Shown here: positions 7,243 through 53,760 of the stretch, in pieces
How the letters are laid out: each line of letters starts with the position of its first letter
How positions within the stretch are numbered: position 1 is the stretch's first letter
From: Pempheris klunzingeri
Lineage: Eukaryota > Chordata > Actinopteri > Acropomatiformes > Pempheridae
Reading direction: 5' to 3'
Length of the DNA: 64,000 nt
Assembly: GCF_042242105.1 (NCBI RefSeq)
Contig: NC_092022.1
Span: 11,342,001-11,406,000 of the forward strand
Translations under genes and position numbers: made by a program
Notes under the pieces: model-generated
The model's database searches: none
Told to the model about the DNA's origin: nothing
Seen by the model: only the letters and a program-made list of their open reading frames with translations

Positions 7243-7952
7243 GTGAGTGTCACTGTTGTTTGTTTTACTGTCACACAGTGGGACCTGAAGCTGATAAGAC
7301 CTTGTCAGATGTATGAACGGTGGCTTATAGAGGAGGTGTTTGCTTCTGTCATGCTTTGGTTTACGTGACAGGCTGTTGTGCATGTTTTCCTCGGCCTGAA
7401 ACACAATGTCATGTGTCCTTCTATATAAACCTTTAAAGTGATTGTATCCAGCAGTTTTCACCAGTTGCGCTTTTAATCGTTGTCTCGTGTTTTATATAAT
7501 GTGTGACAGGGATTATGTGTTGAGGCAGCGAAAATGTTTTCTTTATCAGCTAGTCAGTCCCTCCCTTCATGCCCCAATAGACGCGGTGTTTCACGTCAAC
7601 TGAGCTGTTCCTAGAAACCCTGGTCAGTTTAGTTCTGTTTATGTGGCATGAAGCCGTTCACTGATGGGATTCATTAGATTTTAACTTTGTTCATATCATA
7701 GTAGTAGCTCCCCAAATAATATTCAATGAATATCATACACGATCCAGGTCATTTCCTACTTTGCCATTCAGTATATACTGGTGTAAGTATTTTTGAGGCG
7801 TGTGGCTGCACTGCTCTCCAATGTGAGGGTGTAACTAACACATGAGGGGCAGATTAGACAGCTGTGACCGTCCCCTGTGTGCAGATGTCATCCAACAGAA
7901 TCAGAGATATGAAGCCCCTCCAGATTTCACAGAGCCAACATTAAGGAAACAT

Positions 7953-12456: not shown

Positions 12457-15400
12457 ATGGCCCAGTGGATACACATGTCCCAGATGATACAGTGCCTACC
12501 TGAGGAGACTGTCAGCAGCCTCTATCCCCCATCTGCCTTCCCCATTGAAGTCAGACATTTTTTAGCTGAATGGATCGAGAACCAAAGATGGTATGACACA
12601 AACACATGCTCATACAATAACATACACACACACAGACACACAAACATGCTTACATATGTTCTTTATGTTTATTGCACATGTGTGCAATGTGTGTGTGCTT
12701 GTTCATATGTTGCTTTGCGTGTATGGATCTGTGTGCATGTGTGCTATTAAAGAGTTTGGTCTAGACCTGCTCTTTATGGAAAGCATCTTGAGCCAACACT
12801 TGCTATGAATTGGTGCTATATAAATGTGTCTATGTTTACATGCACATACTGTATATGAATGTGCATGTATGTGTGTATGTGCCGACAGGGATGACTTTAC
12901 CCTGGAAAAGGTGGAGCAGGAGAGCCAGGCTCAGGCTCTGTTGGACCAGACTATCAGCATGCTCCAATCGATTGCTCAGCAGAATGCTAATGTGGTGGAC
13001 AGGATGAAGCTGATGCAGATCAGCAGGAACATGGTAGGGGGACGGGGGACAGATGGGGGGGGCGGGTTGGGGGGGATAGGTTCCTATCCAGTGAACCCTG
13101 ACAGGTTTCAGTAAAACAATGTCAGTCTGCCTGCTGTCTGCATCTGAGGTCACATGCAAAGACAAAGGCATCAAGTACTTCAAGAATTCTGATGAACACA
13201 AGATATCATAGAAAAAAGGAATTCATTATAACTACACAAGCTTGCTTAAATGTGCTTGTGCTGACCCGCTATAACATAAAGGAAACGAACTAGAAGTGTG
13301 TTATCTATGATCTACCAACTGTGTAAAGAACTACACGCTCCATGGTCTTTAAGATTTGATTAACATGTGTTTGCTTTACAGGCCATGTTTCAGCAGCAGC
13401 CTCTACAGTTTGGAGTGATGGTCAGGGACATCCTCAGGAAGGAGAGGGCTTTCCTCAACACAGTAAGATCATTTGTATCAAATGTCACCAGTGTGTAGTT
13501 CAACTACAACCCTCATCCTAATAAGATGCCTGATCTGTTTGTTGGGCTCGATCTCTGAGAGTTTATATTATAGGTGACCATCACTAATACATAGTCCTTA
13601 ATAAAAAGGCATGGCTACTTTGCCAGCATAACTTACAAAACACAGAACTATAACATTGGTTTTGCAATACCAGTGGTGCATAAATGACGATTTATATTTT
13701 TTCCAGGAAAACATCCCAAGTGTAAATTTATTTCCTAACTTCTTGGCAGCCACCGGTTTCGGTTATTATCAGTAGTATCAGTTATTGCTCAGAGTTGAAA
13801 CTTGCCTGAGAAAGTTGTAACTTTTTAATCAGAGCATTCACTCATAATTTAACATCTCTCCTTTGTGGTTTATGTGTTCAAGGATCCAAGGACCATGAAC
13901 CTGTTTATTTAGCTGTATTTTTTTCCTCCGGCATTAGTTTGGGGTGCGTGACAATTGTGCCAGCGTTTGCACTCCCTCTCTGAGTCTTAACTGAAATGTT
14001 AACACAGACATAATCAACTTGTTTTTGAGGATTTCATTATATCTGATGTTCATCGTGAATAAACGACCATAGATCTGGGCAGAAATGATAAAAAATATGC
14101 TCCTTATTACTCCAGAACTTGCCTAAGAATGTTGACGTTTTCAAGTTTTCTTCAGTATCAAAGCTATCCAGTTATAGTTGTCTGTACATTTATGGGTACA
14201 TTGCAAACAAGAACTGTTAATAGCTGATTCGGCATAGTAATTGGTGCCAATTTAGCAAAATGCATACAAACGTGGGTTAAACAAATGGGTTATAGCACTC
14301 GGGTAATTTGATAATGCATGTTATTATATTTGTTTATATCCCCCAAATTATGGGAATTCAGAGTATAATTATCCCCCACATCAAATTAAGACAAAAAATA
14401 GTAATAGGAGCAGGGTTGGAGTCGTCAGACTTTGAACCCCCGATGTAATTACGTGTGCTATCTTATTACTATACATACTACTATTGATTTACAAGTAAAC
14501 AGTTCTGAGCCCAGCACCATCGTACTGTAAGTATATTAAGTGCCGTTTCTATGTTTGTAGCCTTCTCAGATCTCCAACCCTCCACAGTACCAACAGTACC
14601 CGAGCAGGGAGTCCTCGTTCCCCAACATGCAGGATGTAGACCACCTGGTTCTGAAGGTGCTCGATGTCCAGAATATACGGCAAAAGATGCACCAGCTGCA
14701 AGAGGAGCTCAACTGGGAGAGGCAGAACTATGAGGGTTTACAAGGTGAGAGGCAGACGAACACAACACGAGCACAAGATAGATGCACACAGAGCTCACAG
14801 AGCTTCAGCAATGCTTCATGGTCACGTACATAAATAGCTGTGATTTAGCATAATGTTCCAACAAGCTCTAGTGATGCAAGTGGAGCTTACGTAAACATCT
14901 TACCACAGAGGCTGAGACTGGTGTAAGGTATTTTAGTTCTTTTATTTCTTTTTCAAGATGAATTAATGGTGTGATTTTATTTTCAGCTCCGTTTCCTGAG
15001 CTTTTGAAACAAGTTCTGTTTTTATCTTTGTTTGACTGAGTTTGTGACTTCTGTCTTCTCAATCATTTGGTGTCATGTGGTCATAAAACTCAACCTGACA
15101 CTGTCTGAAGTTAAAACCTATTTAAGTTAAGGTTGAGCTCAGTTTGGGGAAAGAAGGGGTTTTCATAATCAACACTGCACATGCTCAGTTCTAAAGCTGG
15201 TTAGTTAATGAACCGATTAACAGAGACAATTAATCTGAAGCTGTTTTGATAAATGATTTATCGTTTGTCATTTTCAGAGGCCCCCTGGGAAACTGTGCTG
15301 TAGAGGTTTCACAGATCTCTCACATGTTATTGATCACAAGATTAATATAGAAAGTATTCAGTGGATTAACCAATAGTGAAAATATTTATTAGATGCAGTC

Positions 15401-18400
15401 CTACTCTACTTTTTTCTTTGCAGGAAATTTATGTCACAAAGCCGGTTGTGTTGAGTAAGACGGACAGTGTTGTTGAGATCAGTTGACAGATAGAGCTGCA
15501 AGTCACTGGTGTAGGAATGAAACACAAAGGCATTACGTCTCCGAATGACATGACAGAGAGCTAACATAACTAAATGCATGAATAAACCTGATCTTTCTTT
15601 CTAATAATACCCTGCTCCTACTACACACGATTCATGGATTAAACACTGTCCTCCAACATGTGTATAGAAAATAAAAAGAGAAAATGTGCTTTCTGTTCTT
15701 TTTCAGTGGGACATAAATGATGTATTTCTTAGTTTTTTCAAAAAAATCTTTTAAAATACTTTTTCAGTGTGCAGTGCAAGTAGCACTATCCATACCAGCT
15801 GTACATAAAATGTTTATGTGGCCAAGCTTAATGTATTTTGTGTGTCCTTTGTTTTATCTGTCAGAGTTAATAAGAGTTTTTTTTTTATTTTTCCTATCAC
15901 CATCAGAATTCCCGTCAGAGTTCCCCCCAGTGTCAACCCTCACTTATAGTGATAATATATATTATTAGTGTTTTTGCTTTGTTTTCAAAACAATGACCAC
16001 TATTTCCCATTTAGGAGTTAAGTCCACCAACATGCATTTTATATTCCTGTTTAAGGAAATGCAGTAGGATCCTGTAGGTTAGGATGGACTCACCATTTGA
16101 TGTTATTCATTGTTTGCACAGGGCCGATTCAACAGAACGGACTGGATCCTGCAAAGTCAGAAATCCAGAAACTCCAGAATCACATTCAGCAGCTGGAGTA
16201 CAATGTGAAAGCAATGGCCACGGTGAGCTCGGCAGTGACCTCTGCTGCTAGTGCCAACATTACCTGAACCTTGGAGGAAAAATAGGTCTTTTTTTTAATA
16301 AACATTTCTGAAGAAATTAAAGTTGTTTATCATTAAATGGATGCTGGTTGTTTGCAGAAGCGTTTCCAGCTGCTGAAGGAGTGTGTGGACTGTCTGGACA
16401 AGTGTCAGACCCGACTGGTGAGCAGGCTGAAGGCGTGGAGGTGGGAGCAGCACAAGGCCGCCATCGGACATCCCTTCGACGACAACCTCAACCCCCTGCA
16501 GACCTGGTGAGGTGCATCACAATCTGTAGGCCTCTGTGTTGTGATCTTATCCTGAAAAAAGCACACACCTAATTAAACATTACACTTGGTTACGTTACAT
16601 TACATTACACAGCAAGACGATATCTGACACATGCTTATCTTTAAATGCTGTCTTACAGGTTTGTTTTATTTCCTTTTACAGGGCAAATCCATTGTGATAC
16701 ACTATCACTGCTTTACTTACCAAGGGGTCAAATACTCAAACATATTGCATCTCTGTAGTTACACCCCAGTAATTAGCTGCATCCCCATTCAAGTATATTG
16801 TTCTATTGATTGATATATTTCTACCCATGCTAGCATTGTGGCTCAAGGAATGGTTGGTCATTCGTTCCACCAGTCTGGTCCAGACTGAAATATCTCTAAC
16901 TAACAAATGGACTGTCATAAAATTTTGTTTTCCAGTGAAATAACTGTATAATATAATTATCGATTATGCTTTAAATATAATTCTTAAGTTAATTTCTTTG
17001 GTAAACATGTCATGTTGTATGAAATGATGAACTTTCTATCTTGCCTTCTCATTTTCTTCACATATGTCTTTGTTAGGTGTGAGCAGCTGCTTGGTGTGAA
17101 CGGGAAGCTGAGACAGGAATTGATGCTGATAGGGGAATCATTCCCGGAGCTCCAGGAAAGGCTGGGGCAACTTCTGCAGGTTATCATTCAAAGGTAGCGC
17201 CGTCAGATTGTTTTCTTTTCCATATATTCATATGTGAGTGCAAAAGAAAGACAATGTATTTAACTTCACTCACAAACTGCAACATAAAAGCAGAAAGTTT
17301 GTTTCCTCACTGATGTCTCCTTCAGCTCTCTTGTAGTGGACAAGCAGCCCCCTCAGGTCATCAAGACCCAGTCAAAGTTCTCCACCACTGTGCGATATCT
17401 GCTGGGGGAGAAAGTAGCTCCGGGGAAGCCTGTGGTGCTGAAGGCGCAAATTATTAATGAACTGCAGGCCAGAAATCTGGGCAGTGTACCAGGGTGAGTC
17501 ATATGCGGCATATGCTGAGGAGGAGGAGGAGGAATATCTTGTTTTTTGTGGATTCCCTTTGTTGATTATTGGCTGTGCCAATTTAAGATGACTGGAATAA
17601 TCTACCTGTTTGATCCATATCATCTTTCCACTTGTTCATGCCTTGTCTTCTCATTGTTGAATCAGTTGTACATGTCCATAATAACACAATTATGTTTCAT
17701 ATCTTTATTCATTCTATTAATGACATTAACATTTTTCTGTAATCTATGTTTTTTTGTTTTGTTAGTTTTTTGTCACATTTGGTATTGTATAATTACCTTG
17801 ATGTTTTTTTGTTATATGTCTTCTAATTGTACTGTATTATTGTCATTGAGGACCCCTTTGAAAATAAGGTGATACATCTCAAGGGGTTATTCCTAATAAG
17901 GTGTCACAACTCTTGGAATCCAAAACATTTAAAAACACTTTACTTGGAAAAAAGTATTTGGTACACAAGCGATCTGTCTGGAGGATGACTAACAATCTAA
18001 AAGCAGGAACACTAAACATGAGTGCTGGAACGTTTGACACAGAGGTACACAGACGAGCTGGCACAGAGAGGGAGAAACACATGCACTAAATACTAAATAA
18101 AAAAGGGGAGGGAAATCACACTGGCTGGAAACACACAAGGGCAGCAAGTGAAGTATCTGAAATGAGAGAATCGAGTATGACGGAGTAAAACAGGAAATGA
18201 CGAAAGAATTCAAATGAATGGGTCATCATCTGACTTCTGCAGGGCTTCACGATGAGCAGATCGTTTGAATCAGGTGTGTTGGAGCACGTAAACATCTAAA
18301 ACATGCAGTTCAGTGGGCCATCAGGACCAGGATGGGTCCTGGTCCAATACAGACATCAGATCAAACAAACACAATAATAGAGACACTTCAAAATGGCCTC

Positions 18401-21400
18401 CATTAAGGTTCATACTCTACACTACTTACATGAATAAAATACTGACAGTAAACATCTGTTGTTTTTGTTTTGTTACCTGCAGTGATAATGTCGGTGAACT
18501 GATTAACAACACAGCCATCCTAGAACACAACACAGCCAGCAAGAGCACATGTGCCACCTTCAGGAATATGGTACGTACCTCTCGGCCTAAATTAGATCAC
18601 AGTGTTGTCTTGTTAACAAATTTAAACTTTTATTTTTCCTTTAACAGTCCATCAAGAAGATCAAAAGAGCAGACAGAAAGGGATCAGAGTCTGTGACAGA
18701 GGAGAAATTTGCTCTCCTGTTCTCGACAGAGATCAGTATCACGGGCTGTGACACTCCCTACAGGATACAGGTTTGACCTTTATGAAAGAAATGTTGTTTT
18801 TTCTTGTATCACATTACATTGAGCTGAAAACTATGTGGTCATTCAGTATATATCCTTGGTGGGATCAGGGTTGTCAACAATTTTAAAATATGTCATTGAT
18901 TATAGATGATCTCACTGCCGGTGGTCGTCATTGTCCACGGTAGTCAAGACAACAACGCTCTGGCCACCATCATATGGGACTGTGCTTTTGCGGAAGCAGT
19001 AAGTGTCAAAGTATTCTTTTCGCTTTTCTTGTTTCCTCTCTTTCGGTTTGATACCTCTTCACTTTTTAGCCCCTGTTATCAATGGTGCACTTTTGTCTGC
19101 CTGTGCCGTTGTGAACACAGTAGCTCTACTTTATGCAGTGTTAATGTTTGGTGCTTAGGCTCTAATGTCATCACTCCCTGTGTGGAAAGACCGAGCTCAG
19201 CACAGCAAAGAGTGGGGTGTTATGATAATAACTTCTTGCCATAGGGGAGCAAAGGCTACATACCCCACAGGTGGATGCTGGGATGAAGGTGGGGCTCATA
19301 AAATGCAAAATGAACAGCATTGGTAGCGAGTGACAGCGTAGCTCTCAGGTGAGCGCTGTTGCAGAAGGCATGAGTGGAGCACTGATGGCACTTGAGGGCA
19401 CTGCCTGAACAAGGTTGCAAGTTTCACTTCATGAAATCAGTGACATATAGAGGCTCACCTTGTAGACTAGTTGATCTGATTGACTTCTAGAGGAATGTTC
19501 TGTAATTGCTTTGATATTAATTTGATTGGAAATGAACAATAACTCCTTAAGCTTACTAATCAGGGATGTCCATCTCCAGCAAAAATACTATTCGATAGTC
19601 ACTGTGAACTAAAGATTATTCCAATATTCCCCTGACATGCAGCAATAGGCGATGACAGCTATGCTGCAGATAATGCAGCAGATAACTTATTAATAATTAA
19701 TCATTATTAACTTATGTTATGTGTAATATATTCATGACACAATAATTCATGTTGTGGAATAGACAAGCTATATTTTGTTTTGAACAAAAATATGAAAATA
19801 AACAGCAGTGCAATGGTCTGAAGGAGAGAATGACAGATTAATGTGACATCTAGGGAGTACATATCTTCTTTCCAATTGTAAATGTTGGGACTTTGACAAC
19901 ATGCAGATAACGGATGTGACAATGAAAAACAGAACAGGAGGAAATGGCACATTCAGCCATAGAAAAATAAAGGAAGCCCTTGAGCGAAAAGCTTTCCTGT
20001 ATTGAACTTTTGCCAAAGCTACATTGCAGGTTGATGTGTCTACAGATAGTAATGAATTTGCTGATTCCATTAACAGTGTAGAGTCTGGTGACAGCATAGT
20101 TCAAAAAGGTCTGCCATTGTTTCTTTATTTATCTAAGGTGCTGAACCACTTGTGTGAGCTCTAAATACTGGATAATGTAGAGCAGTGCCAAAACATAAGA
20201 GAAGGGGAGCAATCTGCACCCTTCACAAATGGGACCTACATTAAGACACAATTAAGCAAACTATCTTATCAGATGTAACTTAGTGTCAAAGGTTAAAGCT
20301 TAAAATTAGCTATGAGTTTGACTCATGTTGTACATGAGGGCTGTACATGAGGACTTTTTTGACTTGTCATAGTAAGAAAAGCAAACAAATTTGTGTCCCA
20401 TTAAGCCATGGTGAGTGAGTGAGCCAGCATGAACAATAGGGGGAATACCATGGAAGTATGACGCATACTGTAAATGGAATGCAGTCATTTTTTATGCCTG
20501 CAATGAGAAGTCATAATGTTTGCTGCAAGAGGGCTAATGGATTTTTCCATAAAGCCAATATTACAGGAGGATAATCTCTATGTAAATGGGCTGTGCGCAA
20601 GATGTTTACGTCCTTAGCACCAAAATAAAATATTATCCTCCACTGGAAACCTGAGTTTGCATAAACCCTATTCAGACAGTACAGTACTTGTACTACTGTA
20701 CGTCTTTGTCAAAATGTATTGTATACATGGTATATATTTTATGCAGCTTTACCAGTTTACTATATCAAGTTGGAAGTGAGCCATAGACTTCCAGTAATGT
20801 GCACACAATCCCAGTGGGCCTAAACGGATTTCCTGTTTGTTGCTCTTTGCTTTGTCTGGAAATAGTGAGATGTGTCCTGTAAGAAATAAATAGATTGTCT
20901 GAAATGCCTAACCACTCAATTAAAATGAGCAATGCCTAAATAAACGATAAACATTTGTGATACAAGTGTATTTAGTCATTCCTTTTCTCTTCCCAATTTT
21001 TGTTTCTTTCACTCTTCCCCTGATCATGTCAGCCTCTTTGTCGTTGTCATTAGGACAGAGTGCCATTCGTGGTGCCGGAGCGCGTGCCCTGGAGGATGAT
21101 GTACAGCACTCTCAACAGTAAATTCACAGCTGAGGTCCAGACACAGCACAATCTGGACCACTACAACCAGCACTTCTTGGCCCAGAAGATATTCGACAAG
21201 CCTGATTTTGCAGACGACTTCAGCAACATGATGGTTTCCTGGGCCCAGTTTAACAAGGTACATGCACACACGCGCACAGACATGCACTGGCTGACATACG
21301 CTCACACCTAACCGAGCCTTTCAATCTCACAGGAGGTTCTCCCAGGTCGACCGTTCACTTTCTGGCAGTGGTTTGAGGGAGTGATGGAGCTGACCAAAAA

Positions 21401-24219
21401 GCACCTGAAGACGTACTGGAGTGAAGGGTGAGGAAGGCTCACTTGCTATTTCATTAGTAAATAAGAACAACCAGCGACAGTCTGTTAATAATGACAATTG
21501 TTTGTAATGTTTTGCTCCACCAGCCTGATATTTGGTTTCATTGGGAAGCAGCATCTACACCTGATACTCAAAGACAGGCCCAACGGGACGTTCTTGCTTC
21601 GCTTCAGTGACTCTGAGATCGGAGGCATCACCATTGCATATGTGTCTGCTAGTGAGAGTAAGTGTTGGTGTGGCCTCAGTTTGATTTTGATTGTGTATTT
21701 TCCCACAAATTCCTCTGTTTCTTGTCTTGACAATGATAATTCTGAAGTACACCCAGTAAATTCAGTGTGGACATATTTATCTTTATTTATCTGTTATTTT
21801 TATGTGAAGGAATTTGGGGACTTAATTTTGACAATTGCCATTTAAAGCTTTAACAACCCCCCACCACTTTACGGGTGGCTCTCCTGAATAAAAACAAATG
21901 GATGGTGTTATTTAGACCCTTTCAATAGATTTCGACATCTGTGGAGCTCCTGAAAGGCCATGGTGAGATTTTGTTTTCTGAAAAACTTTTGCATCTCCCT
22001 GCATTAAGTTTTATGTTCCCTCACAGTTCATTTTGCATTTCTTTCTTGGAGATGGACTGTAGCTGTTATTGTGACTGTCGCCATAGGATGGCATAGCTTT
22101 GGCCTCTGCCATCGTTGTGCTTTGGTTGTTGTGATTATGGCTGTGACACATTAGTTTATAATGGTGTAACACTGTCGACATGCAGGTTGTGGTTGTGTAT
22201 GTGGGGTGAAATGACATGGTTGTGGTGGCACAGCGTTGAAGCGAAACTAGAGTATACCTGAACTCCTGTGATGTATTACTAAAACATCTGTCATATCTAA
22301 TGTAAGCACCTCAGATTCAAATCTTCAGTGGCTCAGCAATGTTTTCTTGGCAGACAGGAGTACTGAAGAGTAGAAACAGTACAGGGAGCCATATCTGTAA
22401 CGCCATACATGAATTAAATCACAAATGCAGCCTCAATCACCACAGCCAGGCAGAGCAGCTGCAGCTGTGCTCTTGGTCAGTGACTGGAGTTTGGCCTTTT
22501 GAAAGGCGTAATGAGCAAAAAATGCATAATCTAAAGGGTCTAATCATCTCTCCTTTCTGTTGTATGTGCATTGTTCCCATAAACTGGCAGTCTAACTGCT
22601 CTATAACTTGGCTGAACCAACACACTAACTGTTCATCTGGATCAAAGGGAATGCAAAAAGCATTAACGTAGTTCCAGGAAAAACCCCACTGTGTCCTTTT
22701 GGGGCTCCTTAGATATCCTTTTTTGAAGGCAGGAAGCCACTTTCTGATCTGTACTCCTCTTGTGTTTTGGATGTGACTCATTTTCACAACACAACATTGT
22801 TTTTGAAAATGACCAGAAAGACCAGAAAGACTTTTCTAACTTTTCCTACATAGTTACAATGTCTTAGATGATCAGTGGATATTAAGCATTAAGTAATAAT
22901 AATGTGATAATACTCCTCTGCCTCTCCCACTCACTCATATGCACTGACACATCAAACATTTTTTCTCTTCTAGACGGGGGACAGAAAATCCAGAACATCC
23001 AGCCGTTTACCAAAAGAGATCTTGAGATCCGAAGCCTTGGCGACCGCATCCGCGACATCAACCACATAACACACCTGTATCCTGACTTTCCCAAACATGA
23101 GGTTTTCAAAAAATTCTACTCAGGTAACGGCCTTCATGCACAGAGTCAGTTTCATGCTCAGAGGTACAAGTGAGAAGTAACTAACAATTCTTCTTTTTTT
23201 TTTTTTCCTGCTATCATTTAAACCAGAGCCTCAACCGTCACCCATCGGGGGTTATATCCCTGTGTCTCTCCATACTAAAGTTGGCATGTAAGGATTAATT
23301 TTACACATAAACAGTGTCATTTGATGCACTTTGAGTAAAAATATTTGGAACATGTTGGTCATGCTTTGTTTCTGTGTGTGTGTGTGTGTGTGCGCGCAGG
23401 GAAGCTAGCTCAGCCACATCCGTGGCTCCTCTCGCTGTAAACCCTCCCAGTAATGCTGGCTTCACCGGGTAAGTGTCACTCTCATTTTTTGTAAAGGTTA
23501 TGTTGAAATAGTTGGTGCTACACTCATGCTACTTTCTTCCATTATTACTTTATTGGCTTGGTTAGAGTCATTGTGTACATACCTTACATTATGCAAAATT
23601 TTCGTACGTCATCCCCTATAACGTCTCATGAAATAGAAAATACATGCGCAAATCAAGGGTAACTCGTATTTGTGGAAATTTCAGTATGATGCATATTTGT
23701 GTTGATATTTCGCTTTAGATTTGACATTGAAAGATCTTTAGTAAATAATGAGGACCATAAATTTGATGTGTAATTTGTAATAATGTGTCAATTTCTTGCG
23801 CTTAAACATGCCAACTTTGAGTCCTTTGATTGAGTGAATGACGGAAGTTTGTTAATGGTCATTAATGAATCCAAGGTTCCTTTTTATAGCGCTCCTGTTC
23901 CCGCTGTTTATTTCAGACATCAGTTCCAGCAACCATTTGGTTCGCCAGAGTCCATCAGTCTGGACAGAATGGAACGTGCTCCCACTCCTGCGGTGGAGTT
24001 CAGTCCAAACACTCCTGGTGTCTTCACTCCACAAGACATGTAAGTTTTTATCTTCATGTCTGTGTATGAAATCCATTCCATTGTTTCTTTTGTTTTTTTC
24101 TAGTTTGTAAGTCCACAGTTCTGAGAGGCCATTTTATGAATGTTTGTCTGTCTTCTAGTTCCACAGATACCAGTATGGACATAGATTTGGACACTCTCCT
24201 TCAGACTCTGAATAATTAG
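12457..24219 (+). CDS. stat6: STAT6 transcription factor, 19 coding exons, 759 aa
   Basis: Latent cytoplasmic transcription factor of the IL-4/IL-13 JAK-STAT pathway. Coding exons: 12457-12590, 12889-13033, 13382-13462, 14561-14744, 16122-16222, 16358-16506, 17077-17193, 17326-17493, 18483-18570, 18648-18770, 18906-18998, 21054-21257, 21333-21427, 21524-21657, 22974-23123, 23227-23287, 23400-23468, 23917-24039, 24159-24219. All have AG/GT borders and compatible phases (2280 nt). The N-domain is residues 1-120, the coiled coil about 135-300, the DNA-binding domain about 300-450, then linker and SH2 (about 535-665). The SH2 core [11 protein letters not shown] puts the phosphotyrosine-binding Arg at 587. 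SLGDRIRDI and the GGYIP site (Tyr665, aligned with the human GYVP activation tyrosine) identify STAT6 rather than STAT5. The C-terminal transactivation part is short (about 90 aa after Tyr665) and ends with an LDTLL motif at 750-754. The ATG at 12457 opens the conserved MAQWI N-terminus and sits 12 nt after an acceptor. Confidence 0.96.
12757..12832 (+). repeat. LINE/SINE 3'-tail-like fragment in stat6 intron
   Basis: The stretch with AGCATCTTGAGCC followed by TTGGTGCTATATAAATGTG resembles the 3' end shared by many teleost L2-type LINEs and their SINEs (CGCCTTGAG, then GCGCTATATAAATAAA). No coding part is attached. It lies in the intron between stat6 coding exons 1 and 2, in sense orientation, next to a CA/TG-rich stretch. 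Confidence 0.5.
13034..13079 (+). repeat. G-run tract directly at the stat6 coding-exon-2 donor
   Basis: The first 46 intron bases after the donor contain at least four runs of three to eight G (GGGG, GGGGG, GGGGGGGG, GGG, GGGGGGG) with short spacers. This fits a G-quadruplex-forming pattern on the coding strand and therefore in the pre-mRNA. Confidence 0.85.
16790..16930 (+). repeat. Dispersed teleost repeat, copy 1 (stat6 intron)
   Basis: Contains TGGTCCAGACTGAAATATCT at about 16876, shared exactly with copy 2 near 41540. It is preceded by TTTCTACCCATGCTAGCAT, which also recalls this family. It lies in the intron between stat6 coding exons 6 and 7. The family name is not known to me. Confidence 0.6.
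23373..23399 (+). repeat. (TG)n tract forming the stat6 coding-exon-17 acceptor
   Basis: About ten TG units followed by CGCGCAG abut the 69-nt exon at 23400. They replace most of the normal polypyrimidine tract of this 3' splice site. Confidence 0.9.
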
Positions 24220-28391: not shown

Positions 28392-29652
28392 TTATAGGGC
28401 CTGTGTCTTGAGCTCGATGGGCTCTCCCCTGGTCTCCTGCTGGCCCTCGGCTTCTGGGGGCCGAGTGCCCTTCAGTGTGGCGAGCCTCTCGGAGAGGCCG
28501 CGCATACGGGGGAACAGCATGAAGTCATACAGCAGAGCACCCATGGCACCACCAATCATTGGTCCCACCCAGTACACCTGTCATTAACAGAAAAGACAGA
28601 GAGCAGAGCGTGTTGGCGTGAGTTTGTTACTCACATTCACATTACTGTGGTTTGCAACAGTTTGTAGTGTAAAAACACTTAAAGACACAATTGTCTTACC
28701 CAGTGGTTGACAAAATTCCTGACCAGGACAGCAGGGGCGAAGGACCTTGCTGGGTTCATTCCTGCTCCGGTGTAGTACATCTAAGTCAAAGACAAAGAAG
28801 GAAGTTCTGTAAATGTGACCGTCAATGTGTTTATGTGACATGATACAATAGTCAGATCATTGTATGAATCCAGTGAACCGTTTCAAACGTTCACATCCTC
28901 CTGGTTGGTTCTTACCCCGAGAAGATGCCCCATGAGCACAGAGAAGCCGATGGCCAGGGCAGCAGAGCCCATGCGTCCATTGCGCCTCTCATCAGTCACA
29001 GCAAAGATGCAGACGACAAGCTGCAGGGTGAGGAAGACCTCCATGGTGGTGGCCATGCCCAGGCTGATGCCTGGCTGCAGCTGAAAGACCGGAGGGGAGA
29101 AGAAAGAAAATTAAAAAGACACAATTAACATGGTTTTAAGTTCTGATAGATGCAGTTGCATTGCTGTTTATGTAACTGAGATGCAGAGTTTATTTTGCAG
29201 AATTGGCTAAATGTAATGTAACATTTGTAATACAGGAATGAGACCCTGTCTGCTTAGTCTGAAGCATTTCAGTGATTGGCAGGTGATCTTACCGTGTTGA
29301 GTGCTAGATTTCCCCTCATGTTGCCGGGTGTGACCCCATAGAGCACGGCAGCACCAGCCATCGCTCCGAGACACTGGGCCATCATGTAGAAGAAAGCACG
29401 GAACAGGGACATCTGGGAGCCAATCAGGTAGGCAAAGGTAACAGCTGGGTTGATGTGTCCTCCACTGATGTGGCCGATGGACTGGATGAGGGTGGCAGCC
29501 GCCATCCCAAAGCAAAAGGCAACATGGAGGACATTATGGGGCCCAGTGGTCCAGCGGAGGGCTGCCCCGAGCCCAAAGAATACAAAGAACATGGTGCCAT
29601 AGAACTCAGCGAAAACCGCCCGCCAGAAAGACATAGACCTGAACTCCCACAT
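28392..29652 (-). CDS. mip: Lens major intrinsic protein, aquaporin-0, 263 aa
   Basis: Water channel and junctional membrane protein of lens fibre cells. Exons on the minus strand are 29652-29293, 29080-28916, 28780-28700 and 28577-28392 (792 nt). That gives 263 aa, the same as human MIP, with the four-exon structure typical of the family. There are six membrane helices with two NPA boxes (68-70 and 184-186). The selectivity filter is Phe48, His172, Ala181, Arg187, as in AQP0. The C-terminal helix, [16 protein letters not shown] at 224-239, corresponds to the calmodulin-binding segment. The ATG has a Kozak-like GCCACC before it. Compared with human, Tyr23 is Phe, Tyr149 is Thr, loop A carries His39-Asn40, and Ser235 is Ala. 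Teleosts carry two mip copies. This one resembles the 'a' copy as I remember it, but I leave the suffix open. Confidence 0.97.
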
Positions 29653-30050
29653 GGTGGCAAAAGGTCAAAAAGCAACCTCTAAGCAATGGAGGGATGAAAA
29701 ATCAACAGAAAAACTAACTAATTAACTCCACAATAATGACTGTCAGAGACCAAAAAACACAGAGCAAATGACAAAAATTTGCCCTCAAACAGAAACTGCC
29801 TCTCTAAAGCTAAATGCAACAACACGTAAACTGCTCAACATGTAACTCTCATGCAACTGTGAACAATCTGCTGCTCTGCCTGAATTCTGATTTCTGTCAT
29901 AGAGAGCTCCTGAGTGGAGCAATTCGCCAGTCTCTGTGCATCTATGTGCCAACCCTGCTGGTTGTTAGTAGAAGAACATGGATAGACAAACGTTAAGCAT
30001 GTCCTGCAGACATTCAGCCTCTTTACCAGAGCAGGGGGACCTCAGAGGCC

Positions 30051-35661: not shown

Positions 35662-37982
35662 CTAACCACATGTCCGCAGCTAACCTTGAATACTTCAAAA
35701 CAAATCAGCCTTAGTTATTTTTATGTAGATTTATGCCAGTATGCTCAACAACCCCTTGTGTTAGCCTATTTTATTGACCATTTTACAACGTCATTGACTC
35801 CTGCAAGTAATTAACAACTGCTTCAGTTTGACATCACAGTGCACATGGCATTTGCAGCATTTGTCAAGGCCAAAAAACAGGCCACGTTTTGGACTTTCTA
35901 ATGACTCAAATACTGAAACCCACAGAAAAGTTTGGCCTCTTTTTGAACCAGATCATCTGCAGATAAATTCCACACCTGATATGGTATGATCCACTTAAGT
36001 TAAGTAAGATACAAATAAATTCCTGTATCTGTTTATCTTGCCACCATGACTGTTAGGGGGGGGCGTGTTAACAGCTGTTGAGTTGAAGTCTGCTCCCCCA
36101 TTAGACAGCGTTTCCCTGTTGCCCTCTGCAGGTGGGGTTAGATTATAGTTAGGCACAGATCACATAGTGGAGATCTGCATTCTACTGAGTACACTTTTGT
36201 ATGTAGTTTTGTATTTTTTCAATTCTCGTTTACTTAGCTGTTTAATTAGGTGGTATACTATATTATTACCATGAATAGAACTGTGGCTGCTTTTAATCAT
36301 ACTTAGTAAGACTAAGCAGCTAGATGCATGTTTATTTTTCAATATAGAGGTTAAATATGAGTTAAAAGCTTATTAAGATTGATGGCAATTAAATTGGCAG
36401 TATCTGGTCCGTCTTTTTTAAATAATCAAAGTTACCTTTGTCTTATCTTTGGTAAGTCGTGGCCATGATTTTCCAGACTCTGCTTTTCGTAAACAACACA
36501 GCACAGACCTGTCCGTCCGTCTGTGTTTGGATGCCTGTGTGAAACAGAGAGAGTTTAATGAAGTATTTGAATGAATAAAACATATGGTGGAACTATAAAT
36601 ATATCAAAAGGTGACAAACATACTTTGGGGTCTATCTCCCCAAACAGGTCCACTGTATTCTGATGTTTGATTTTATCTGTCCCACTAACACAGCTGTAAA
36701 GATGAAAAGAGAAGAGGTTGTGAGATTTCCAACAACAGAAAAACAATAAGTTGTTTGTGTTTTAATCATTCTGCTCATATACTGTATCAATACCCCATTA
36801 CCAAAAAAGCATCTCAAGTATAATCTTTTCTTTAAGACGTTTCTAGAAGACAGGACCTCAGTCGGTTAGTCCAAAGGACAAGTAAATTCTTCAGAATTTA
36901 ACCATTTAGTGTGCTATTGATGCAACTTACTTGAATTCAAATTTGGAGTTGTCGAATTTTACTTGCACATCTTTACTGTCCTCCACGCAGAACTCTACAA
37001 AAACAGAGTCCCGTCTGTCGTACCACTTGGCTGTTGCAGGCTGCCTAATGGCAAAGAGTGGAAAGAAGGAACAAGTCATATTAGGACAATCCAAACTCAT
37101 CCATGCTTCATTCTAATGTGTCATCTATCCAAGAACTATCCCGTTTGTTAATATTAGTTGGGCATGGCATGTTTCCACAGCTTGGGATCTGCTTTTTCTG
37201 ATCTGGTGGCCCATGAGGTGAAGGACATCCGAAGTCAGGCTTGACTCATGTTGACGAAAGCTTCATTCATTCTCTTCAGATTAGCATGAGAGCCTCAAAA
37301 GTATCATACTGCGAGAATGAGCCCTTTAATCAAAATGGTGCACCTGCTAACATTATATTTCGGCTAACACACACATATGAGAGCACCAATTAGTCTGTCA
37401 TGCTTGGAGGGAAACGAGTAGTACTACATTAATAGTAAATTGTATGTCTATTTGAATGAGAACGACAGTGAGGAAAGAAATATTTGACAGAATTTTGCCA
37501 GCTTGTGTTATGTGTATCAATGAGAAACGTGTGTAATTTGGTGTTGGCATGCGTTAGCTAAAGTAAGGTTTTCCGAGCTAATCATGACACCATGCTTTTT
37601 CAGCGCTAACATTAACGTTACCCTTATTGTGTTGGTTGACATTAGCCGGCTAGCTAGCTAGCCAGCTAACAAAATTGTAGCTGATGTGAGGTGCGTTAGC
37701 AAAACTAGAGTTTATCAGCTAATGGGGCATAGTGGTGCCAAAATATATAACGTTGAAGAAAAGTTAGCTGTCGGTGGATTTAACTGTGTGCTGTGCCTTT
37801 TAGTCTTGACAGCCGCGTAAGTATGACTGCACCACTGAGGCTAACTCGTGTGCTAAGCTCAGTTAGCTAATGTTAGCTAATGTTGATCCGCAGTATATCA
37901 CACCACCAAGACTTGCAGCCAGTTAGCTACCACGGTTAACGGTCTATGCTAACGACCACGCAGTCACACCCAAAACTTACAT
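33884..37982 (-). CDS. ptges3: p23 co-chaperone / cytosolic prostaglandin E synthase 3, 159 aa
   Basis: HSP90 co-chaperone that stabilises the ATP-bound closed state and is also described as cytosolic PGE synthase. Coding exons on the minus strand are 37982-37981, 37044-36931, 36693-36624, 36534-36436, 34707-34618, 34517-34461, 34293-34266 and 33903-33884. They total 480 nt with all phases closed, giving 159 aa against 160 in human. The start codon is split: exon 1 gives AT and exon 2 gives G, yielding MQPATAKWYDRRD. The CS fold occupies about 1-110. The p23 signature WPRLTK is at 86-91, and DFNNWKDWEDD at 102-112 keeps Trp106. The acidic tail ends in KMPDLE. The human caspase-cleaved PEVD site corresponds to PDLD (136-139). 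A reverse AATAAA lies at 33310-33315. Teleosts have a and b copies; this one is not assigned. Confidence 0.96.
34197..34207. repeat. Poly-C tract in ptges3 intron
   Basis: Eleven consecutive C on the plus strand (G in the transcript), about 60 bp from the small exon at 34266-34293. Confidence 0.9.
34806..35592. mobile_element. Probable non-autonomous DNA transposon (hAT-like) in ptges3 intron
   Basis: The left end reads TAGGGATGGGCATTGTTAGG, followed by TTGATA-rich repeats of the type seen in fish elements that begin AGGGATGGGCATCGATA. The right end reads GTGGTACCTATCCCTTA, whose reverse complement starts TAAGGGATAGG, so the ends are imperfect inverted repeats. There is no transposase ORF. 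The interior lies between ptges3 exons 4 and 5. No clear target duplication is seen because the right flank runs into a GT microsatellite. Confidence 0.4.
35595..35659. repeat. (TG)n microsatellite, about 32 units
   Basis: A perfect dinucleotide run of about 65 bp in the ptges3 intron. It is the longest uninterrupted microsatellite in the window. Confidence 0.98.
37340..37980. promoter_or_regulatory. Cluster of GTTAGC/GCTAAC motifs in ptges3 intron 1
   Basis: About fifteen TTAGC or GCTAA cores in both orientations occur in 640 bp. They include a near-perfect inverted repeat at 37641-37670 built around GGCTAGCTAGCTAGCC. The cluster sits immediately inside the first intron of ptges3. Its function is unknown. 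Confidence 0.6.
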
Positions 37983-38160
37983 CTCCACAGTTTTAGCAAT
38001 TACACTCCCTCGTCGGACCACGATCTAGGTAATAATGTTATCTAGCTGTAGTGCCCGGCAAAAACTGCAAACTGAAACCTAAACAGTTAACTCAAACGTT
38101 TGTATCAGATACATCCAAACATCGCGAGTTTTCCTCGTTCTCTCGTGACGTACCGTTCCA
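37983..38160 (-). promoter_or_regulatory. ptges3: Probable ptges3 core promoter / 5' UTR
   Basis: This stretch just upstream of the split ATG contains CGCGA near 38122 and a TGACGTA (CRE-like) at 38146-38152. There is no TATA box. It fits a housekeeping-type promoter, but the start site cannot be placed. Confidence 0.35.
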
Positions 38161-38672
38161 CGAGACTGAGCACGAGAGCTTCGCAGGCCGAAACCGTTTG
38201 AGACAATTCTAGAACATGTGCCCAGAGTTCCAGAGCAGCGCAAGAGCTCCACCAGCAGTGCAGCAAGAGAATGGATAATCTGACACTTAATTACCCGATG
38301 AGAAGGCATGTGAACACCTGATAATGATACTCTGCTGAAGACAATGCACTGATCGATGTTTCTTTTCGTTTCCTTTCCACCTTTGTGTGTTCAATATCCC
38401 CAATCCTCAAGTAAAAGTGGCAATACCACACTGCATAATACTCAAGAGAAAATGTAAATAATAGCTCAATAAATGGATACATACATAGTATTATTAACAA
38501 AATGCACTTTAGATATCAAGGAAAACCCTATTCAGTGTAGAAATATGGCCTTTGTGTGTGTCATGTTATTGTTATGTCATTATGTGTGTGTCATTTTCCT
38601 GTTGTAGTTTTTCAACGGAGAACAAATAAAAAGTAAAAGACAATATTTGCCTCTGAATTTTGGGATATTATT

Positions 38673-43911: not shown

Positions 43912-46900
<2,989 letters not shown>

Positions 46901-47298
46901 CAGCGTGAAAATGACTCTTCCAAGACTTTCTAGGACTTTCCGAGCGTCCGTTCAATGGACATGACTCGGCTCCAGGTTGTGCTCTGAGACTGCCCGTCCC
47001 ATAAAGGATGGCTGAAGACGAGGCCCTCAGCAGACAGGCGTCTTAATGCTGCAGCAGAGCCCACATCACTCCACTAGTTGTTCCTCTGTTTGTTCATTTT
47101 TTTTCCTCCAGAGTTCAACTTAACCCAGTGCTACACGTGGAAGAAAATACTTTGAGTGCAGTGCATTCTTGTATTACACAATCCTCTGCCTGTCACTGTT
47201 GGCAATAGGACCGATATCTGATGCATTTATTTAAGAGCATCGTGGTGTGTGGGAATTCATGGTACTTATATATTATTTAGGAAATCTAAGTTTAATGT

Positions 47299-47304
47299 AA
47301 TAAA
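47299..47304 (+). terminator. dtx3: Candidate dtx3 polyadenylation signal
   Basis: AATAAA lies about 400 nt after the dtx3 stop, with T-rich sequence downstream. Confidence 0.55.
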
Positions 47305-47692
47305 GACAGTTTATGTTATATTAATGTTAATTTTTACTCTGGGGATTATTTTATTTCTTACAAGCACACATTCTTAGTTTTCTCTCCCCAGAAATGTTTG
47401 TTAATTTCTAATTTGATTGTTACTAATTACCTGGTGTAAGGATAGTACTTGGGTTATTTGGCAGAATAGCACTGCTTCAATAGAGGAATATTTCATTTTC
47501 TGAAGTTATTGCAATCTAAAGCACTCACAGGCACTTTGGTAAGGGAGTTTGTTTTTCAGTGAAGTTGTCGTCATGGATTTTGCTTCCTCTGTGGAAGAGT
47601 AATCGGGGCAAACAGGTTCATGCAGCCATCAGCTGTTAGCTTGGTGACTACAAGTTGATGTCAATTGCTTGGAACTTTTCATTTGCGTGTGA

Positions 47693-47708
47693 CCCCCCCC
47701 CCCCCCCC
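47693..47708. repeat. Poly-C tract, 16 bp
   Basis: Sixteen consecutive C in intergenic DNA. The exact length is prone to sequencing error. Confidence 0.9.
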
Positions 47709-48933
47709 GTTTTGACTGAAATAGGAAGAATGTTTAACTATATCACATTGCAGCACCTTTCATCATGCGCATTAGGACTTTCCCCTGGGTATTTCTGCCA
47801 CCGGTCACTCCTGTTATTTCAAGATGTCTCGCAGGTGTTGAGCCCATTACCTCAGTTGTTAGTAATGTGCTCCTCTAATTACCAGATTTATGACGATGTC
47901 AAGTAAAAAGGGCATATAGACCACTTAAACCAAATCAAAGGCACAAAAGCTCTTTAAATATCTATGCCTCTGTCCCTGTCAAACTGGGAGATTTGCCTGC
48001 TAATGTTCTCATTTAAAATGAGGTAACTGTTGTATATTTGTTTATCTAAAAAGATAATCAAGGATACACAGTGAAAAAATAAAAGAAAATGTTGCTGTAA
48101 CAATTGATCTGATTTAGCGTGGGGTATTGATCTCATTTTTTGTGCCTTTCTTATATTCACTTTTGATAAAAAAAATAAATAAAAAAAAACCAAGCATGAT
48201 GTTACTCATGAGGGTCAAGCAGTTTGGGCGTATTTCGGTGTTAAACAGCATTACGTTTGTAGCTCTACTATCTGGCTTTAAGTACAAAAATTAGTTCATG
48301 AAGATATGTATACTAACGTGTATTAAATTAGCTTCTCCTCCTTAAACATTCTTGTAGTCCAAATGCTGAAAAGCCCTGAGACTTGATAAAGCTGTAAGTG
48401 TGAAAGTGCTTCGCTGAGTACAGTAACCTGCTTGGCTAGTTGTAAATCTGTCATTAATTTGACCTGTCAGATCCATACATCAAACACCCTTTCATAACGT
48501 TTTCATTCCCCTTTGTATTTTAGTTAAGGGACCAACTGAAATATTTTTGGGACACAGGATTGTAGTTTACTAAAGCTACTGTGCAAACATTTCTATGCAT
48601 TACATGACCGAGGAGAAGCCAGGCGAATGGGTAGTTGGAGAAATTACACATATTACAAATTGATTGTTAAGGAAAAGTTGGAGTTTTGCTTTTCTAATTG
48701 TGTTGATTCGTACTTTGTTGATATTCCGAATAATGTGCTTTACATTTTAATACTTGAATAAAAAGTTATGTTTGGGTTTGTGTTGGATATTCAATGTAGG
48801 CCATAAATAAACCAGGTGCGTCATTAGCAAGTGAATATCGAACCTGTGTCCATTTGGAATGAGTTGGGGTTGTTGCCTCTAACCAAGATGTGAGCTGAAA
48901 TGTTCCCCTGTTCCCCCTCTGCTAAAGCACTCT

Positions 48934-48952
48934 GTGCCATCTAGTGGACAAC
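48934..48952 (-). promoter_or_regulatory. CTCF-like motif, reverse orientation
   Basis: Reverse complement reads GTTGTCCACTAGATGGCAC, close to the CTCF core CCACTAGRKGGCAS. The match was judged by eye. Confidence 0.5.
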
Positions 48953-50416
48953 AACTGGCAATACTTCACACCACAGTGTGTACTTAATTTTACCTAATTT
49001 TACACAATAACTACATTAGAAATGGGTAATCACAGGGGCTACGTTTGATTATGTATTTTGAGTATAATTATGAATATTAATGAATCAACTTTCCAGTGCA
49101 TCTGGTATGCTATTGTAGGTCCTTGCAACAAACTGTTCAGTATACAGTGTCACAGATTTGGCATCCTGCTAACCACAGTGCACTGCTCTATATGCGGCTG
49201 CGGTCCTTTATTGCATGTCATCCCCCTTTCACACTCCTCATATTTCCTGTCTATCTCTCCACTATATACTGTCAATTAAAGGCAGAAATGCCCAGAAGTA
49301 ATATTTTAAAACAGCTGTTAGGTATCCTATGCTACCGCAAAATGTATATGTGCCATATTGAACACCAGCAAAAGGGATTATATAAAAAATGCATAAATGC
49401 TGAATGAAGGAATAACACAGAGGCTCAAATGCATCACTGTTAGTACCTGCTCATCTCAGCTCTATGAAGAAATACTAGCTGCGACTGCGACTGATTGAGG
49501 AATTAGAGTTGACCACTAAATTAGAAAACAGTCATTTTTTTTCCACTTCATTTTATTTTTGGCAAAGTTTTAATCATGTTTGAAAAGAGAATTACAAAGT
49601 GGCTTTCAGCTCTGAAATACTCAGTAGGAGACTCATCTTAGTTTGCTTTGAAGCTCTTTCATTGATAAAGCAATCTCCCAGAAAGCTTTCCTTTAAAGAA
49701 TCACAGAACTCAAGACAAATTATGGGTAAGGACACCTTGTTTGCCCTTTAAAACACAATGACTCTGTGCATGAGTACTTTAACTTGAGTAGTTTTACAAA
49801 GCCAGCAGATAATAAAGTTGCCACTCAACATCCTGATTTTTTTACTCACCTCAAGGAAAGAAGTTACTGGTTAATTATTAAAAATGGTCAAAGTATTGAC
49901 GTGGCCTAAGCATTGTTTGGCCTAATAAATTGCAGGAATATTCACTCCTGTGTTCTAAATGTTAAGTGGGTGAAGTATGTAAGTAATGGCAACAAAATCT
50001 ATATAAAGTATAAAATTCACTCACTATGCAGGCGAAATCACCACCGTCAGTGTTACATTATTATAAAATATAGTAGTGGATTATCATTACTGATGCATTA
50101 ACATGCACACTGCATTTTAGTACTGTAGCTGACTGCCTATTTTCTATATTTCTGGTTGGTTTAATTAAACGTATAACAACATGTATTATATATATGCTCA
50201 TTATCACCATTAGTGACTAGCTGTCAGGTGGAATAAAAAGTGCAATAATTTTCTTTTAAATGCATGTAGATGCAGTAGAGGCAGCCATTGTTTCTATTTG
50301 ATTCGTTAAATGTGCAGATGTCTTTGCAGATGAAGATAAAATTCAGACCAATCAGAGGACTGTTTGCACATTTATGCGCATCCCCCGGTGGAAACAGCTC
50401 TTTCCTTTCCTTAATT

Positions 50417-50424
50417 TGACGTCA
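50417..50424. promoter_or_regulatory. Consensus CRE upstream of the deltex paralogue
   Basis: A perfect TGACGTCA palindrome lies about 80 bp before the ATG at 50500. An ETS-like ACCGGAAA follows at about 50489. The stretch 50.35-50.5 kb is GC/CpG-richer than its flanks and probably holds the core promoter. Confidence 0.55.
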
Positions 50425-50499
50425 CATGTCTTCAAACTGAAGCCATTTGCGTCCGCACGCAGATACGGAGCGTAGTCGTCACCACATAACCGGAAAACA

Positions 50500-52488
50500 A
50501 TGGAAAAGAGACCCAACGACCACAATGTGGTCCGTAAAAGTGCGGAAGACTGCGCCATTTGCTTGGACAACATTCAGGAGAGGAAAACTTTAAAGTGCCT
50601 CCACTCGTTTTGCTCTCAGTGTATCGACTCGGTTTTCAAGTTGAAGCCAGCTTGTCCGATATGTAACACCCTCCACGGGGAGTACACGGGGACGCAGCCG
50701 GACGGCACCATGACGGTGACGCGCAGCTGGCAGCGCCTCCCCGGCTACGAGCACTGTGGATCTATTGTGATAAAGTACGTTTTCCCAGCGGGGATACAAG
50801 AGGTGAGGACGACACTACAGACGGAACCTACATGATGTCGTTACCTCTGAGTGCCGCATATGCCCAACAGGGGGCGCTGTCGTTTGTTTTTGTTGTAATC
50901 ACAGGTCCACAGCCCCGCACTGACACATTAAAACATCTGGATTAGGTATGATAAAATGGCCGCTAGCTCTGTTCGGCGCCCCCCCCACCCCCCAGCCACT
51001 CACATGGGATTGTCCTTTAGCTCCAGTCTCTTATTGTAAAGCATCATCCACTGTGAAGCGTTTATGAACCATGCAGAGATACGAGGAAGTGATTTCAGAG
51101 GAGCATCCAACTGTTGCCATAGAATCAGTGAAGAGGTGGAGGAGGACAAGATGCTCGCCTTGTTATTTAGGAGTATGAACTAGGAGCATGAAAGTATTTT
51201 GCTGGTAGATTGGTTTTATTACTTACTCTGACACTTTGGCTGAATACATTCAAATTATTGTTTTATTTAATGTGTAATCGGCCAATTCCTAGATTCCATA
51301 TAGGCTACTGACAAATGGATCAATGACCGTGCACTTTTTCTCTGACATAATATGTAAGAGAAGTCAAGCCAAAGAGACTTGCTGAAGTCTGATAAATCTC
51401 AAGTGGGGCTGCAACAAATGGTTATTTTCGCAATCTGTTAATCTGCAGATTATTTTCTTGATTAAATCTTTGTGATGCCAAAGTATTACTAAAATTGCCC
51501 ATCACAGTTTACCATTGTTTTTTTTTTACCCTTTCAATGCCTTCTTTTTTCTAGTTATTGATTCTCAAAAGATTTTCAGTTCAGAAAAAATGCTGAAAAT
51601 GATTGATCATCTCTCAACACCTTTAGTATATGGCCGAAATTCAAATTCAATTTTTCCACAATTCCTTAAGGGAGAATTTTCACCTGCAATAAAACATCAC
51701 AAATGGGTCACATTTGTTGATCAGTGCATGCCTCTGTTTACTGTATTACAGCCAAAGCACCCAAACCCTGGGGTGAGGTACAGCGGCACCTTTCGCACTG
51801 CCTTCCTGCCAGCATGCGAGGAGGGTGAGAAAGTCCTGAGGCTGCTGAAGAAAGCCTTCGACCGGAGACTCACCTTCACCATCGGACGATCTGTTACCAC
51901 TGGCCTCAACAATGTAATCACCTGGAACGACATTCACCACAAGACCAACATAGAAGGGGGTCCGCAATGGTATGCACATCTTTGCTGTGGAATCATATAA
52001 TAATAATAATTTTGACCTGATGATGGCGCTACATGAAAAGTTAAGGGATCACCAAAGTGCAGAATTCGTCATGAGGAGAACATGAACATGTCTACAAACT
52101 TCATGGCAATCAATCCAATCGTTGCTAATTATCATTCTGGGACAAATAAGCGAAATGCTTGTAAATATTTACTAGGTATCAATTAAAATCTACAGGGATT
52201 TTTGATGCTTGGCTGTCGGAGCAGCATATTGTTGTTGCACAAACCTCTCTAAGGCCCAGTGTTTCACATTTGGCTCTAAACTCTATATAGCCTTTGGTTA
52301 TAGTGGATGAATTAAAAAATGGGTTCAGTGAGCTAAAAGAAGAGCTTTTTCCTTATACAGGAGATACGATCAACTACATTTTCTGTTATTTTTTCTTTCT
52401 CCATTCCAGTTTTGGATATCCAGATCCAGAATATTTGTTCAGGGTTCAAGAGGAGCTTCGTCTTAAAGGAGTGACAGAAGATCAGTGA
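50500..52488 (+). CDS. Short DTX3-like E3 ligase (RING plus deltex C-terminal domain), 199 aa
   Basis: Tandem paralogue of dtx3. Exons are 50500-50802, 51752-51969 and 52410-52488 (600 nt, phases closed). The C3HC4 RING is at Cys18-Cys55 (CAIC, CLHSFC, CPIC). The deltex C-terminal domain follows with [23 protein letters not shown] and FGYPDPEYL. The middle exon is 218 nt, as in dtx3, and both following introns have the same phase, so the two genes share ancestry. The 185-residue N-terminal region of dtx3 is missing, and the RING loop before the third cysteine is one residue shorter (TLKC against TLERC). The ATG at 50500 (AACAATGG) opens the frame just ahead of the RING, after an in-frame region with promoter motifs. 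RING and DTC together are the catalytic unit of deltex ligases, so the protein could be active. No official symbol is assigned. Confidence 0.92.
50862..50880 (+). promoter_or_regulatory. CTCF-like motif, forward orientation
   Basis: GCCCAACAGGGGGCGCTGT matches the CTCF consensus core (CCANNAGGGGGCGCT) closely. It lies in intron 1 of the deltex paralogue, 60 bp after exon 1. Confidence 0.55.
52013..52160 (-). repeat. Dispersed teleost repeat, copy 3 (reverse)
   Basis: Reads GATGATGGCGCTACATGAAA, then GGGATCACCAAAG, then AACTTCATGGCAATCAATCC. This is the reverse-orientation body of the family whose other end (GGTCCAGACTGAAATATCTC) is seen in copies 1 and 2. It lies in the last intron of the deltex paralogue. 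Confidence 0.6.
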
Positions 52489-53760
52489 TGAATGAAAACA
52501 ATCAGAAAACATCCTTCAAATAGATGTGTATTGTTACAGTGTTCTGATTTCAAGCCCGCAAGTTGTGCAGTCCTCAAGCAGGGATCTTCATCACTGACAC
52601 TTTAAGATGTTTTTTTTTTCTATGTGGATACATAGAATTATTATCTTGATACATGAATGTTAGTGGCTTTCCCCAAAGATTTTTCAGAATAACCTGACTA
52701 TGCAAAAAAACCCAAAATGTCTGTACTGTATGTAATCCAACAAAACAAATATTACATTGCAGAAGGTTATCAATAGGGTTCATACTTCCAGACATCAGAT
52801 TTCAACAATTTGAATTTAAATGCCATATCTCGTCTTTTGTAACACTGGATCACAGGTCTGGTGCCTAAGAGCAGACACAGGAGGCAGAACAGGTGGTAAA
52901 AGCAGACTTCACCTGATCTGACTCATTGTTTGCAGCAAGGATGGAGGAAGAACTGGCAAAGTAATCCCGAAGGGCTAAAGTGAGCAGAACGGCGCAAAGG
53001 CTGCACAGCGTGAACTACGCGGACTGTCTAACTGTGAGTGAGTGCTGGTTGTGGTGTATATAGTTTACAGTATATAGGGGAAGTGGCCACAACCAGTATC
53101 CACATTTCTGAATGTAACTGGAATGGGTGCAGTAACGTATCATTACTGTTGTTTATTCCAAAGCTCAAGCCGTTATTGAATGAGTATAATTTAGCTGATT
53201 CTGGGTGACTGTTTGGACAGTGGTCAGTAGGATAAATTCATGCTCTGTCCACACCCTCAACCAGTGAGGTCCACAGTAGGATAATGTGTGTGAAATGAAT
53301 TGGTAAAGTTTCAGAGGAAAATAAGAGGTGATAATGTGTTTGAAGATAATACATTTCTTCTGACAGAGTCAAAGGATAAGCTTGGTGATATTCAGTATTT
53401 TTCTTATAGTCAACAAATCCCATAAAAAGCAAAAACAGCAATGAATGGATCCTACAAGTATTGGCTGCGTAGCCAGCTCCTGTGTAAGATGCAGTTTAAT
53501 CATCTGTAGAGACGTACGTTTGAAGTTGATCCCACATACACAGTTCTGCTGCTGTTTAAATAAAAGTCAATGGTTGGTTTTCATTCTTTTATCGGATATA
53601 TTGACAAAAAAACAACACATAGAATATCACCAGTCTTATCCTACAACATGTTTAATACTATATAAATTAGTTTGTGCCTTTATATTATCAGTCAGAGTGA
53701 TTTTGAAATTTCAAATCTATCTAGTTCTGGTAGTTGGAAAGCATCTTTGGTGTATTTCAG

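Follow-up and report, generated by a model that had tools for sequence, protein, structure and literature searches.

Can a deltex ubiquitin ligase work when it consists of nothing but its RING and DTC domains? The question is raised by a 64,000-nucleotide stretch of the Pempheris klunzingeri genome (the window; positions given here count from its first base), in which a gene for a short RING-DTC protein follows dtx3 in the same orientation, about 3.6 kb beyond the end of the dtx3 coding sequence at 46900. Based on its sequence, we posit that this gene is an old DTX3-type paralogue encoding just the RING-DTC unit, and that its product is probably a self-sufficient ADP-ribose-ubiquitin ligase. 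The argument turns on whether the gene is intact, what its protein has kept and lost, how old it is relative to dtx3 and what the known behavior of human deltexes would predict for it.

An apparently intact three-exon gene

The paralogue occupies 50500-52488 on the plus strand and has three exons separated by two GT-AG introns. Exon 1 (50500-50802, ending in phase 0) carries the start codon, the RING and the first part of the DTC; exon 2 (51752-51969, 218 nt) carries DTC sequence including the catalytic histidine, H163; exon 3 (52410-52488) carries the end of the DTC with the glutamate E189 and the stop codon TGA at 52486-52488. The spliced 600 nt encode 199 residues with no internal stop. A previous sequence-only reading had proposed a three-exon, 199-residue gene at this place, and the intact frame and the GT-AG introns bear it out. 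The start codon lies in a strong context (A at -3, G at +4), the pyrimidine contents of the two acceptors (0.70 and 0.90) compare with 0.70-0.75 at the three acceptors of dtx3, and the first AATAAA 3' of the gene (53559-53564, plus strand) is a possible polyadenylation signal. The gene may well be annotated already in Ensembl or NCBI Gene; in the open-access literature, none of the matches listed names a short deltex gene adjoining dtx3.

Is the paralogue under constraint? Its protein matches that of dtx3 at 109 of 179 aligned residues (61%), and at 64 of these 109 identical residues the two genes use a different codon. By the NG86 method dN is 0.36 and dS is saturated, as we take the program's output of -1 to mean. 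We simulated 2000 copies evolving neutrally to 0.2 changes per site: stops were absent from 3% of them, and none of the copies lacked both stops and indels when 0.1 indels per substitution were assumed. The reading frame of the gene has stayed open while synonymous change reached saturation. It is very unlikely that the gene is a pseudogene in decay or an unexpressed coding fragment, given the open frame, the good splice sites, the strong start context, the constrained substitutions and the CpG island described below.

The neighboring dtx3 and the missing N-terminal region

The upstream gene has a large exon (44472-45274) encoding the N-terminal region, the RING and the start of the DTC, a 218-nt exon (46393-46610) and a last exon that includes the stop codon (46825-46900), all on the plus strand; its first coding exon, which we place by eye, is probably 43912-43924 (plus strand; start codon and three codons, ending in phase 1). 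We compared its product with a provisional human DTX3 sequence, the length and cysteine position of which agree with the available part of PMC12407064, as its linchpin residue does with that of PMC7615817. The alignment covers 321 residues at 53% identity and takes in the N-terminal region, so that we regard the gene as a DTX3. Its own linchpin residue is Arg (CPVCR, 45131-45133), where human DTX3 has Gly according to an excerpt of PMC7615817.

What has become of the N-terminal region in the paralogue? Human DTX3 has 163 residues before its RING; the paralogue has 17, and the long N-terminal extension of human-type deltexes is absent. The absence noted in the sequence-only reading is confirmed by a tblastn search, in which the 172-residue N-terminal region of dtx3 found no counterpart in 46901-50560 (best E 1.6). 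The accompanying proposal, that the upstream exons had been replaced, does not hold: the missing region is mostly encoded in the RING exon of dtx3 itself (44472-45274), and the loss or absence therefore happened within that exon. Could the protein nonetheless be longer, with an upstream exon spliced at 50476 restoring an N-terminal region? An AG at 50474-50475 precedes a stretch whose frame is open from 50476 onward, but the pyrimidine content before this AG is 0.40, against 0.70-0.90 at the five acceptors of dtx3 and the paralogue, and the search of 46901-50560 speaks against a dtx3-like N terminus there, although an unrelated one would be possible. We consider such an extension most improbable.

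A repeat search listed no long noncoding repeat common to the two genes, and the direct repeats in its list are at most 28 nt. A Pfam scan of ten open frames of the window gave matches at E < 0.001 in five outside the dtx3 pair. Among the neighbors are a STAT gene (12436-21842, plus strand; STAT_int 12436-13111, SH2 21495-21842) and an aquaporin-type MIP gene (29272-29664, minus strand). This neighborhood fits the vertebrate DTX3 region, in that human STAT6/STAT2, MIP and DTX3 are found close together on chromosome 12. An open frame at 8520-8984 on the minus strand matches a reverse transcriptase (RVT_1, E 1.8e-19) and is probably a LINE-like remnant.

A candidate promoter

A CpG island covers the presumptive promoter and first exon of the paralogue (50400-50999), with observed/expected ratios of 1.09, 1.07 and 0.68 in successive 200-base blocks, compared with 0.38 for the whole window; at 1.08, the stretch 50401-50800 ranks fourth in a list of 1273 overlapping 400-base windows. 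Part of this CpG content is coding sequence, which makes it support for a promoter rather than proof. The sequence-only reading had described a new promoter with a perfect CRE and an ETS-like site. The exact CRE-like match TGACGTCA is present (50417-50424, plus strand), ending 76 bases 5' of the start codon, but its frequency is about that expected by chance (one found against 0.49 expected per window, and at least one in 37 of 100 shuffles). Likewise, the ETS-like CCGGAA at 50490-50495 is there, but as one of four on the plus strand of the window it is weak evidence. The CpG island thus supports a promoter of the paralogue's own better than the CRE does. Another CpG island lies 5' of dtx3, around 43000, and two more (about 6400-7250 and 37750-38400) have no gene matched to them.

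Domains and catalytic residues

In the Pfam search, the DTC (PF18102) matches residues 63-195 of the paralogue at E 4.6e-61, with 205 bits against a cutoff of 25, and the RING (PF00097, zf-C3HC4) matches residues 18-55 at E 3.7e-9, above its cutoff. The RING limits are those proposed earlier; the DTC match begins at 63 rather than at about 65. The RING directly precedes the DTC and keeps all of its C3HC4 zinc ligands. Between C21 and C33 its spacing is one residue shorter than that of dtx3. The deletion previously described is therefore real relative to dtx3 but not unusual, being the spacing of RNF8, which aligns without a gap to residues 9-56 of the paralogue and has the same 11-residue gap between the second and third cysteines. 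A structure prediction for exon 1 from a two-row alignment reached a pLDDT of 39 and was not used.

The histidine and glutamate of the paralogue, H163 and E189, align to His582/Glu608 of DTX2 and H707/E733 of DTX3L. Excerpts of PMC7615817 assign the DTX2 pair a proposed role in activating the ADP-ribose 3' hydroxyl, and report that every tested substitution of the two residues impaired Ub-NAD+ formation; in the part of PMC11460948 available, H707A abolished ubiquitylation of single-stranded DNA (ssDNA) by DTX3L and E733A impaired it considerably. DTX1 and DTX2, which we aligned, and DTX4, as given in an excerpt of PMC11460948, also have a DTC with the catalytic His and Glu. These three deltexes differ from the paralogue in having WWE domains, an AR motif and a larger RING (a partial text of PMC2770060 gives the deltex architecture as WWE/RING). 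The paralogue lacks the AR motif and the RING insertions in our alignment, designated A1, as is characteristic of the DTX3/DTX3L subgroup. DTX3L, unlike the paralogue, carries KH-like domains in an extended N-terminal part (PMC11460948, in part).

Two positions could bear on the activity of the paralogue. Its linchpin residue, directly behind the final RING cysteine, is an Asn (N56) that may weaken closing of E2~Ub, and at the position of DTX3L Y719 the paralogue has Phe (F175), as do both DTX3s; the same partial source on DTX3L reports that Y719A is defective with ssDNA. Together, N56 and F175 may lower the rate of the enzyme. Does this make the paralogue a regulator that transfers little ubiquitin itself and competes with dtx3- or DTX3L-type ligases for ADP-ribosylated targets or for E2, or pairs with them? 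The two residues and the lack of a targeting region would suit such a role, whereas the complete set of zinc ligands and the intact His-Glu pair would not, and the available text of PMC7615817 indicates that human DTXs work without a linchpin Arg (Gly in DTX3, Lys or Gln in the others). We regard a mainly regulatory function as unlikely, and a RING-DTC ligase, perhaps a slow one, as the better reading.

Age and branch point

Did a recent tandem duplication of dtx3 in this lineage give rise to the paralogue, which then shed its 5' part and diverged quickly? It adjoins dtx3 in the same orientation, and its introns interrupt the same aligned codons as those between the last three dtx3 exons, in phases 0 and then 2, around a middle exon of 218 nt in both genes. 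The kinship and shared introns on which the tandem duplication of the sequence-only reading was built are thus there; the phases do not, however, prove a tandem event. Shared intron phases indicate common descent but could already have been present in the ancestor of the DTX3/DTX3L group, in which case they do not date the copy.

Sequence comparison points to an older origin. The RING-DTC core of the paralogue is about 61 to 62% identical to those of human DTX3 and the window dtx3. When the RING end and the DTC are aligned, the identity of the paralogue is 61.7% with dtx3, 64.4% with the provisional human DTX3 and 58.4% with DTX3L; dtx3 and this human DTX3 are 71.5% identical to each other. 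In both DTX3s the QP-x-G stretch is longer by one residue, another residue is inserted before LPG and the RING loop has one more, and the paralogue lacks all three. DTX1, DTX2 and DTX3L (58% identical to the paralogue in the DTC) are also without the QP-x-G and pre-LPG insertions in alignment A1, although a separate MAFFT alignment places the second DTX3L gap differently. We file the gene as a paralogue rather than as a DTX3 because it has neither the DTX3 N-terminal region nor these two insertions.

In the deltex tree the paralogue groups with the DTX3s (support 81/92, not starred). A clade of dtx3 and the paralogue (AU p 0.15) and a clade of the two DTX3s (AU p 0.157) are each about 2.3 log-likelihood units worse than the best tree, which accordingly pairs the paralogue with human DTX3, but without support. 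Grouping the paralogue with DTX3L is disfavored, though not rejected (AU p 0.067). The recent-copy explanation therefore has the location, the introns and an unrejected clade of the two window genes on its side, and against it the saturated dS, an identity to the provisional human DTX3 as high as that to dtx3 and the absence of the two insertions common to both DTX3s. We consider it improbable: the sequences do not look like those expected of a recent truncated copy, and fit an old gene within the DTX3 group. The recent-copy explanation concerns origin, and can be compatible with the same ligase mechanism.

A bacterial DTC protein

Searches beyond vertebrate genomes found one relative. None of 11 pattern matches in viral contigs was confirmed, and collections of plasmids and phages yielded none. 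In a pattern-based scan of 84,980 prokaryote species, one of 40 candidate stretches was confirmed, from Endozoicomonas cretensis, a bacterium that part of PMC12491435 describes as causing epitheliocystis in larvae of the sharpsnout seabream. It is an intact gene of 1040 codons (OODV01000002.1, L001:2331-5453, plus strand). The protein has a C-terminal DTC (residues 903-1039, E 7.3e-53) with His and Glu kept, and two stretches pass as Macro-domain matches, the best at 511-624; Pfam finds no RING, and from residue 620 on the only cysteines are at 800, 888 and 891. The flanking genes (alanine racemase, ABC transporter, AsnC-type regulator) are bacterial, which makes contamination by host DNA unlikely. 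The gene was probably acquired from an animal host, and the protein looks like a host-derived factor related to ADP-ribose and ubiquitin. Within the open-access literature searched, no paper has both Endozoicomonas and deltex. The bacterial DTC also has a longer spacing at both places of the DTX3 insertions; either it came from a DTX3 or it gained these residues in parallel, and the insertion character is thus not beyond doubt.

Proposed mechanism and implications

In the model that we favor, the RING of the paralogue would recruit a ubiquitin-charged E2 while the DTC pocket holds ADP-ribose, either free or on an ADP-ribosylated protein or nucleic acid, and the His-Glu pair would activate the 3' hydroxyl, to which ubiquitin would then be joined by an ester bond. 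With no N-terminal targeting region, the choice of target would fall to the RING-DTC unit alone, and output would be set mainly by expression from the paralogue's own promoter. Transcription, enzyme activity and substrates we infer, as we do the specialized function that had been suggested for a stand-alone RING-DTC protein.

Work on human deltexes makes the model plausible. In transfected cells, residues 152-347 of human DTX3 (196 residues) are reported in the available part of PMC12407064 to be necessary and sufficient to bind tankyrase and monoubiquitylate it, the target being mono-ADP-ribose of PARylated tankyrase. By analogy, a 199-residue protein of similar extent should not need an N-terminal region in order to act. 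The laboratory constructs of DTX3 (152-347) and DTX3L (545-740) described there, each 196 residues, were cut from larger proteins; the paralogue is encoded as such. The same excerpts report that the DTX3L RING-DTC construct does not bind tankyrase. RING-DTC units therefore differ, and the targets of the paralogue cannot be read off from DTX3. Under the assay conditions in the accessible text of PMC11460948, ssDNA was ubiquitylated by just two of the five human deltexes, DTX3L and, to a lesser extent, DTX3.

We speculate, and much more tentatively than in the case of the ligase itself, that the paralogue represents a conserved deltex without an N terminus that predates the split between fish and tetrapods and is not among the human five, a free-roaming, promoter-controlled writer of ADP-ribose-ubiquitin, possibly also on the ends of single-stranded nucleic acids, as is reported for DTX3L and, more weakly, for DTX3. 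A genome-encoded deltex that lacks the N-terminal region would be a natural experiment on ADP-ribose ubiquitylation, one that bears on the contribution of the deltex N-terminal regions and that could easily be put to the test if the paralogue occurs in a laboratory fish.
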